Origin: a bacterium HR40
GTDB lineage: Bacteria > Pseudomonadota > Alphaproteobacteria > Geminicoccales > Geminicoccaceae
Length of the DNA: 64,000 bases
Assembly: GCA_002898275.1 (NCBI GenBank)
Contig: BEIQ01000002.1
Location: 496,001 to 560,000, forward strand
Direction of reading: 5' to 3'
Position numbers and translations under genes: made by a program. Below are positions 2,874 through 4,308 of this stretch, in pieces. Each line of letters begins with the position of its first letter. The first letter of the stretch is position 1. Below the pieces are notes generated by a model, which searched no databases, had not been told where the DNA came from, and was given only the letters and a program-made list of their open reading frames with translations.

Positions 2874-3243
2874 AGGCTCCTCTCCATCCGCAGGGACAAT
2901 CCGTGGAAAAGTCTGTCGAAGCGGGTGGACGACGGCGCGCGGTGCGATTTCTCCCCCGCTGCCCATGGCGGACGCCCCTTTTCGCTTCCGGTCGTCCACC
3001 TCCATCCCGGGCCCGGGGACAGATGCCGCCCGCCGCGACCTTTCCCCAACTTCCGACCGCACGATTCCTCGCTTAAGATCGCCCGCGATCGCGACCGGCG
3101 CAAGCCGGCTTTCCACAGACCCCCGACCGCCGACGGTCCGCGTGGAACGGTCGGGGATGGGTTGTGGATCCCCGTCATGCGCAGGGTCTTCTCCAGCCTC
3201 AATCGTCTCTTCTGAGATTCCAGGAAAGGAAGCGGAGGAAGGG
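2874..3243. other. ppsR-hemE intergenic gap, candidate chromosomal replication origin
   Basis: This is a 370-base gap between divergent ppsR and hemE. It is visibly poorer in G+C than the flanking genes. Three sequences match the DnaA box TTATCCACA at 7 of 9 positions: TTTTCCACG (2902-2910, minus), CTTTCCACA (3109-3117, plus) and GGATCCACA (3163-3171, minus). A palindrome CGCGATCGCG lies at 3084-3093 and a single TTAA at 3073. The ppsR/hemE junction is the replication origin in Caulobacter and the matching region in Rickettsia. I see no perfect DnaA box and no clear AT-rich unwinding element, so the origin call is an inference from synteny. The promoters of both genes must also lie here. Confidence 0.5.
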
Positions 3244-4308
3244 GTGGGCACACCCGACACGCGCAAACGGCTGCTCAGAGTCCTCGCGGGCGAGGTGCTC
3301 GCTCCGCCTCCGGTCTGGCTCATGCGACAGGCGGGTCGCTATCTGCCCGAATATCGAGAGATTCGCGACCGCATGCCCTCCTTTCTCGACCTTTGCTACA
3401 CGCCGGAGCTCGCGCTGCGCGTCACTCTCCAGCCGCTCGAGCGGTTCGCGCTCGATGCCGCCATCCTTTTCTCCGACATTCTCGTCGTGCCCCATGGGCT
3501 CGGCGTCGAGGTCGGCTTCGTCGAGGGCGAGGGACCCCGGGTGGCGACGGTGCGCGACGAGCGCGCGCTCCGCGCGCTGCGGCCTCCGGAAGCGTTGTTG
3601 GAGCGGCTCGCCCCGGTCTACCAGACGGTGCGGCTCTTGGCTTCGGCTCTCCCCGCGGGCGTCGCCCTCATCGGCTTTTCCGGGGCACCGTGGACGCTCG
3701 CCAGCTACCTCCTGGAAGGCGGAGCATCGAAGGAGTTCCTGGAGGCCCGACGGGCAGCTCGCGAGGCCGAGGGCTTCTTCTCGGCGCTCGTCGACCGATT
3801 GACCCAGGCGGTGTGCGTCCATCTCGAGGCACAGGTGGAAGCCGGGGCAGACGTGCTGATGCTCTTCGACAGCTGGGCGGGGGTGTTGCCGGAGAGCGAA
3901 CGGCGGCGGTGGGTGGAAGAGCCGGCGCGCACCATCGCCACGGCCCTCGGCCGCAGGTTCCCGCACGTTCCCCTGATCTGTTTTCCGCGCGGCATCGGCG
4001 CTGGGCTCCTGGCCTTCGCGGAACGGGTTCCTTGCCGCGCGCTGTCGCTCGATACGAGCGTGCCGTTGGCGTGGGCACGGGAGGCGTTGGCCAGGGAGCG
4101 CGGCAAGGTTCTCCAGGGCAACCTCGATCCCGTCGCTCTCGTTGCCGGCGGAGCCGCTCTCGAACGGGAGACTCGCGCGATCCTCGCCGCCTTCCGCGAC
4201 ATCCCTCACATCTTCAACCTCGGCCACGGCGTCCTGCCCGAGACCTCGCCGGCCCAGGTGGCGAGGCTGCTCGAGATCTTGCAAAACTGCGGCGGTGGCG
4301 CCATGTAG
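3244..4308 (+). CDS. hemE: Uroporphyrinogen decarboxylase
   Basis: Decarboxylates the four acetate side chains of uroporphyrinogen III to give coproporphyrinogen III in cytoplasmic heme synthesis. The 354-residue protein carries both family signatures: an N-terminal PVWLMRQAGRYLPEYR stretch and an internal GFSGAPWT. The conserved C-terminal NLGHGVLPETSP holds the active-site His. The GTG start at 3244 is preceded by GGAGGAAGG; in-frame codons before it lack coding character. hemJ follows 52 bases later, then rho, an order usual near alphaproteobacterial origins. Confidence 0.96.
   Translation: MGTPDTRKRLLRVLAGEVLAPPPVWLMRQAGRYLPEYREIRDRMPSFLDLCYTPELALRVTLQPLERFALDAAILFSDILVVPHGLGVEVGFVEGEGPRVATVRDERALRALRPPEALLERLAPVYQTVRLLASALPAGVALIGFSGAPWTLASYLLEGGASKEFLEARRAAREAEGFFSALVDRLTQAVCVHLEAQVEAGADVLMLFDSWAGVLPESERRRWVEEPARTIATALGRRFPHVPLICFPRGIGAGLLAFAERVPCRALSLDTSVPLAWAREALARERGKVLQGNLDPVALVAGGAALERETRAILAAFRDIPHIFNLGHGVLPETSPAQVARLLEILQNCGGGAM

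Follow-up and report, generated by a model that had tools for sequence, protein, structure and literature searches.

Where does replication of this chromosome begin, and is the gap between the divergent genes ppsR and hemE that place? The genome (2.89 Mb) is assembled as eight unordered contigs, and the window analyzed here, a stretch of 64,000 nt, corresponds to C2:496001-560000. A preliminary description had put forward this gap as a candidate origin. Our computations bore directly on its location, the accompanying skew switch, its proximity to parS, its density of box cores and the conservation of its layout, and by sequence criteria we consider it very likely that the gap, at window positions 2874–3243, is the chromosomal replication origin (oriC).

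Extent and composition of the gap

The left flank is formed by ppsR (kinase/pyrophosphorylase, COG1806; Pfam PF03618, E = 6.1e-87) at 1980–2873 on the (−) strand and the right flank by hemE (uroporphyrinogen decarboxylase; Pfam PF01208, E = 3.5e-107) at 3244–4308 on the (+) strand, with rho downstream of hemE. Because the conserved PpsR start, a TTG codon (LRLHVHLISDSTGE), ends at 2873 and hemE begins with a GTG at 3244, the gap is divergent and exactly 370 bp long, the length given in the preliminary description. The ppsR frame is open upstream as far as an ATG at 2966, but most homologues fail to align with the extension. The gap had also been called relatively AT-rich; its GC content is indeed lower than that of the whole window (65.9% versus 68.6%), but the effect is weak, with a drop of 2.2 points against the flanking sequence compared with a median of 6.8 in 81 related gaps. 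Beyond ppsR, a 245-aa frame on the (−) strand (1246–1983) has no Pfam match; it stands where the genes usual beside ppsR would be, and its neighbor at the window's left edge is an outer-membrane-efflux-like frame.

The origins of Caulobacter and Rickettsia are the hemE/COG1806 gap (PMC1914354), in agreement with the preliminary description, and the hemE-type origin is well known, since hemE already serves Ori-Finder as an indicator gene (PMC2275245). An origin of this type is expected beside hemE and/or COG1806, with an AT content above the genome average. Here, both genes flank the gap divergently, as they do in Caulobacter crescentus Cori and the Rickettsia prowazekii ori, and its length is near theirs (404 and 384 bp, respectively; PMC1914354). 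The AT content exceeds the average by a small margin (34.1% versus 31.4% for the window), and this enrichment is much weaker than in Caulobacter, for which an AT change of 33 to 44% is listed. By sequence criteria, then, the gap belongs to the Caulobacter/Rickettsia hemE-type origins.

GC skew, parS-like sites and the terminus

A general mark of oriC is a GC-skew minimum at the site. The cumulative GC skew of the complete 611,759-bp contig C2 was lowest at 499,493 (window 3493), which falls inside hemE, 250 bp from the gap, so that the check proposed in the preliminary description came out in its favor. Specifically, over a contiguous 172 kb the mean G−C per kb was −28.6 to the left and +12.6 to the right of the minimum (block sign-flip p = 0.00035). 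The valley is shallow and its floor broad, with C2:504 kb almost as low, and the keto (GT−AC) skew over the same 172 kb was lowest 31 kb farther to the right (window 34,637). GC skew therefore gives the neighborhood of the origin and alone does not pick out the gap.

Only two parS-like sites were found in the 2.89-Mb genome. They lie 23–25 kb to the left of the gap within an mnmE-mnmG-rsmG-parA-parB cluster (Pfam confirmed mnmE, mnmG, parA and parB; rsmG was read from the sequence only), which places parS/parAB 23–28 kb from the gap; a parAB-gid cluster is likewise found in the neighborhood of the Caulobacter and Rickettsia origins. As with the skew, the resolution of parS is that of a neighborhood, and a divergent gap must in any case contain two promoters, so the origin might lie a few tens of kb or less away from the gap, which would then be a shared ppsR/hemE promoter region. 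We regard this as very improbable: the box-core cluster described below peaks exactly at the gap, gap length and box enrichment are kept across the order, and in Caulobacter and Rickettsia the same gap is the origin (PMC1914354).

On contig C1, the skew changes sign, plus to minus, somewhere in the interval of about 740–780 kb, and this switch likely marks the terminus. A dif search with ATAANNTANATTA, allowing 0 and 1 mismatch, found nothing, and the terminus is accordingly placed by the C1 skew switch alone. The dnaA gene (C1:726929-727411, ~727 kb) is far from the proposed origin and near this switch. Gene-strand bias was of no help, as coding bases are split about evenly between the strands on both sides. 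In the left arm, the cumulative GC-skew curve runs level for about 200 kb (C2:240000-440000), a shape that could result from an inverted segment or a large insertion.

DnaA boxes and box cores

Exactly three sites in the gap have two mismatches to TTATCCACA, namely, TTTTCCACG at 2902–2910 (−), CTTTCCACA at 3109–3117 (+) and GGATCCACA at 3163–3171 (−), the last of which also matches the Caulobacter G-box TGATCCACA (PMC4285127) at 8 of 9 positions. These are the three 7-of-9 DnaA-box-like sites noted earlier, and they were rightly called imperfect: unlike the Caulobacter and Rickettsia origins, the gap has no box within one mismatch of TTATCCACA. Although only 0.25 such sites are expected per 370 bp, three or more occur in 0.38% of 370-bp genome windows, so the count taken alone is only suggestive; it was dropped as a discriminator after windows with 3–4 sites were found elsewhere. 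Caulobacter origins also use weak sites, the G-box and the W-box TCCCCA (PMC4285127). A W-box-like core (TCCCCA) occurs in the gap at 3043–3048 (+), and weak sites of the G-box/W-box type are thus common to the gap and the Caulobacter/Rickettsia origins.

We also counted the box core TCC[A/C]C[A/G]. The gap holds 8 cores versus 0.72 expected, and a sliding 370-bp window placed there reached up to 9, the top value in the 1.62 Mb scanned (56% of the genome; C2, C5, C6 and C8 complete, other contigs sampled), with the runners-up at 6. Since the core definition was picked after seeing the gap, this density is a supporting test and not a blind one. A hemE-type origin should be an intergenic region longer than 300 bp with DnaA-binding sites, and no other intergenic region should be equally site-rich. 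The gap, at 370 bp, carries three 7-of-9 boxes and 8 cores, all weak variants, and within the 1.6 Mb read no intergenic region rivaled it; the search for DnaA boxes beyond the window thus yielded no denser core cluster in 56% of the genome. The DnaA protein itself has a canonical-looking recognition motif, GGRDHTTVMHA.

These data also bear on whether the origin could be on another contig (e.g., C5, or C1 close to dnaA), with the gap being a relic of an ancestral origin. Perfect TTATCCACA boxes occur only on contig C5 (two, at C5:64,175 and 86,825), which also has a shallow skew minimum near 56 kb and, at C5:86,471, a window with 6 cores; however, the perfect boxes are 22 kb apart, the skew dip is small (−355 versus −4512 on C2), dnaA lies near the opposite, plus-to-minus switch on C1, and parS-like sites are confined to C2. 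We regard this placement, too, as very improbable.

We also looked for other motifs in the gap. The palindrome CGCGATCGCG is present at 3084, as reported in the preliminary description, but is common in the genome (20 copies in 1.24 Mb) and was rejected as an origin mark. GANTC (3063 and 3216) and a single TTAA (3073) were likewise set aside, their numbers being judged close to chance. CtrA and IHF sites are a further feature of hemE-type origins; unlike Cori, the gap contains neither a CtrA-type TTAAN7TTAA site nor a match to the IHF consensus WATCAANNNNTTR. CtrA sites are scarce in many hemE-type origins (PMC1914354) and are therefore not obligatory.

Conservation in related genomes

A literature search on Geminicoccaceae origins found no paper, and our comparison drew on related genomes. 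We found hemE in 31 of 32 genomes of the order. Each of the 30 loci retrieved has ppsR next to hemE in divergent orientation, the gap between conserved codons measuring 385–512 bp. Among titled genomes, 54 of 80 hemE loci show the same arrangement. The other 26 (e.g., L095, L106, L111, L112 and L119) have no ppsR alongside in the fetched DNA; most of them come from Rhodobacterales, and a few are truncated where a contig stops. In the Rhodobacterales loci, the ppsR/hemE origin mark has probably been lost or moved. Among 81 distinct gaps, GC content is below that of the flanks in 80, and box-like sites average 4.4 per gap versus 0.76 in shuffles. A MAFFT alignment of the 30 gaps from the order was informative only in the hemE-proximal part.

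A putative unwinding element beside hemE

The basal unwinding system (BUS) has DnaA spreading from tandem boxes onto DnaA-trios (PMC8287927); the element is defined as a DnaA box, a spacer of at most 16 bp and DnaA-trios, with three or more trios expected beyond a box that has no more than 2 mismatches. Many alphaproteobacterial gaps have, near hemE, ATCCCC(G/A) followed by a TTATCCACAGG-like box, C-N-N triplets and an AT-rich tract, which is the same order of tandem boxes, short spacer, period-3 run and AT-rich tract as in BUS (PMC8287927, PMC6669920). An ATCC core with four or more C[ACT][ACT] triplets is found on the hemE-facing strand of 38 of 81 gaps, compared with 2 on the other strand and a mean of 1.5 in dinucleotide shuffles; this pattern was derived from the same sequences that it scored and is related to, but distinct from, the published 3′-NAN-5′ rule. 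The layout is particularly uniform at the hemE-proximal gap end of L098, L118, L158, L141, L147 and L096, where a near-identical ATCCCCG-T[T/C]ATCCACAG is followed by C-N-N triplets; these loci are a clean candidate for unwinding-element experiments.

While the BUS layout is clear in many related gaps, the boxes and triplets of the window are degenerate. The window copy reads GGATCCCCG TCATGCGCA GGGT CTT CTC CAG CCT CAA (3166–3202): a tandem degenerate box pair, GGATCCCCG-TCATGCGCA, at 3166–3183 (+), which would start the element and aligns with the ATCCCCG-TTATCCACA of other alphaproteobacteria, and a degenerate, DnaA-trio-like run of C-N-N triplets at 3188–3202 (+). Overlapping the run is the 30-bp stretch with the highest AT content in the gap (3198–3228), a candidate unwinding element. 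The copy fails the strict ATCC plus C[ACT][ACT] pattern and is recognized by alignment only, in which it matches its relatives position by position, C being almost constant at 3188, 3191, 3194 and 3197, four third positions in a row. When the tandem-box string was relaxed to include the bases of the window itself (ATCCCCGT[CT]ATNCNCA), it occurred once in the 1.6 Mb read. The triplets differ from BUS trios in being C-N-N (3′-GNN-5′), with a middle A that is not constant; deviant trios were foreseen in the BUS paper (PMC8287927). We interpret 3166–3228 as a putative degenerate BUS-like element. No unwinding element had been considered clear in the preliminary description, and the comparison improves on that statement, although the window copy by itself fails the strict pattern.

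A predicted mode of initiation

The skew minimum, parS proximity, core density, conserved gap, BUS-like layout and canonical DnaA motif together support the call of the gap as oriC. We infer DnaA binding, the site of unwinding and origin activity as follows. DnaA, supplied by the distant dnaA gene on C1, would bind the cluster of weak, high-GC box variants, most likely cooperatively, and would be positioned by, and nucleate from, the hemE-proximal tandem boxes (3166–3183). It could then extend along the C-N-N run (3188–3202), upon which the adjacent AT-rich tract (3198–3228) may melt, the helicase would be loaded at the melted tract, and forks would depart both ways.

The ppsR/hemE gap is the usual origin place for alphaproteobacteria, so that this is a solid annotation and no surprise; its value is that an origin is fixed for the genome of a little-studied alphaproteobacterial group by tests independent of gene order. 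The BUS-like footprint, a side result, may be more useful. The boxes, C-N-N triplets and AT tract beside hemE suggest that origins in alphaproteobacteria share the general plan of BUS but have a deviant trio, an idea open to direct testing. As a tentative extension, which we hold to be possible but rather doubtful, hemE origins of alphaproteobacteria might use a variant unwinding code, in which a weak ATCCCC box is fused with a second one and the C-N-N trios after them lack the constant middle adenine of the Bacillus 3′-GAT-5′ trio. If so, the window would represent an extreme case, in which boxes and trios are both degraded in a high-GC background.
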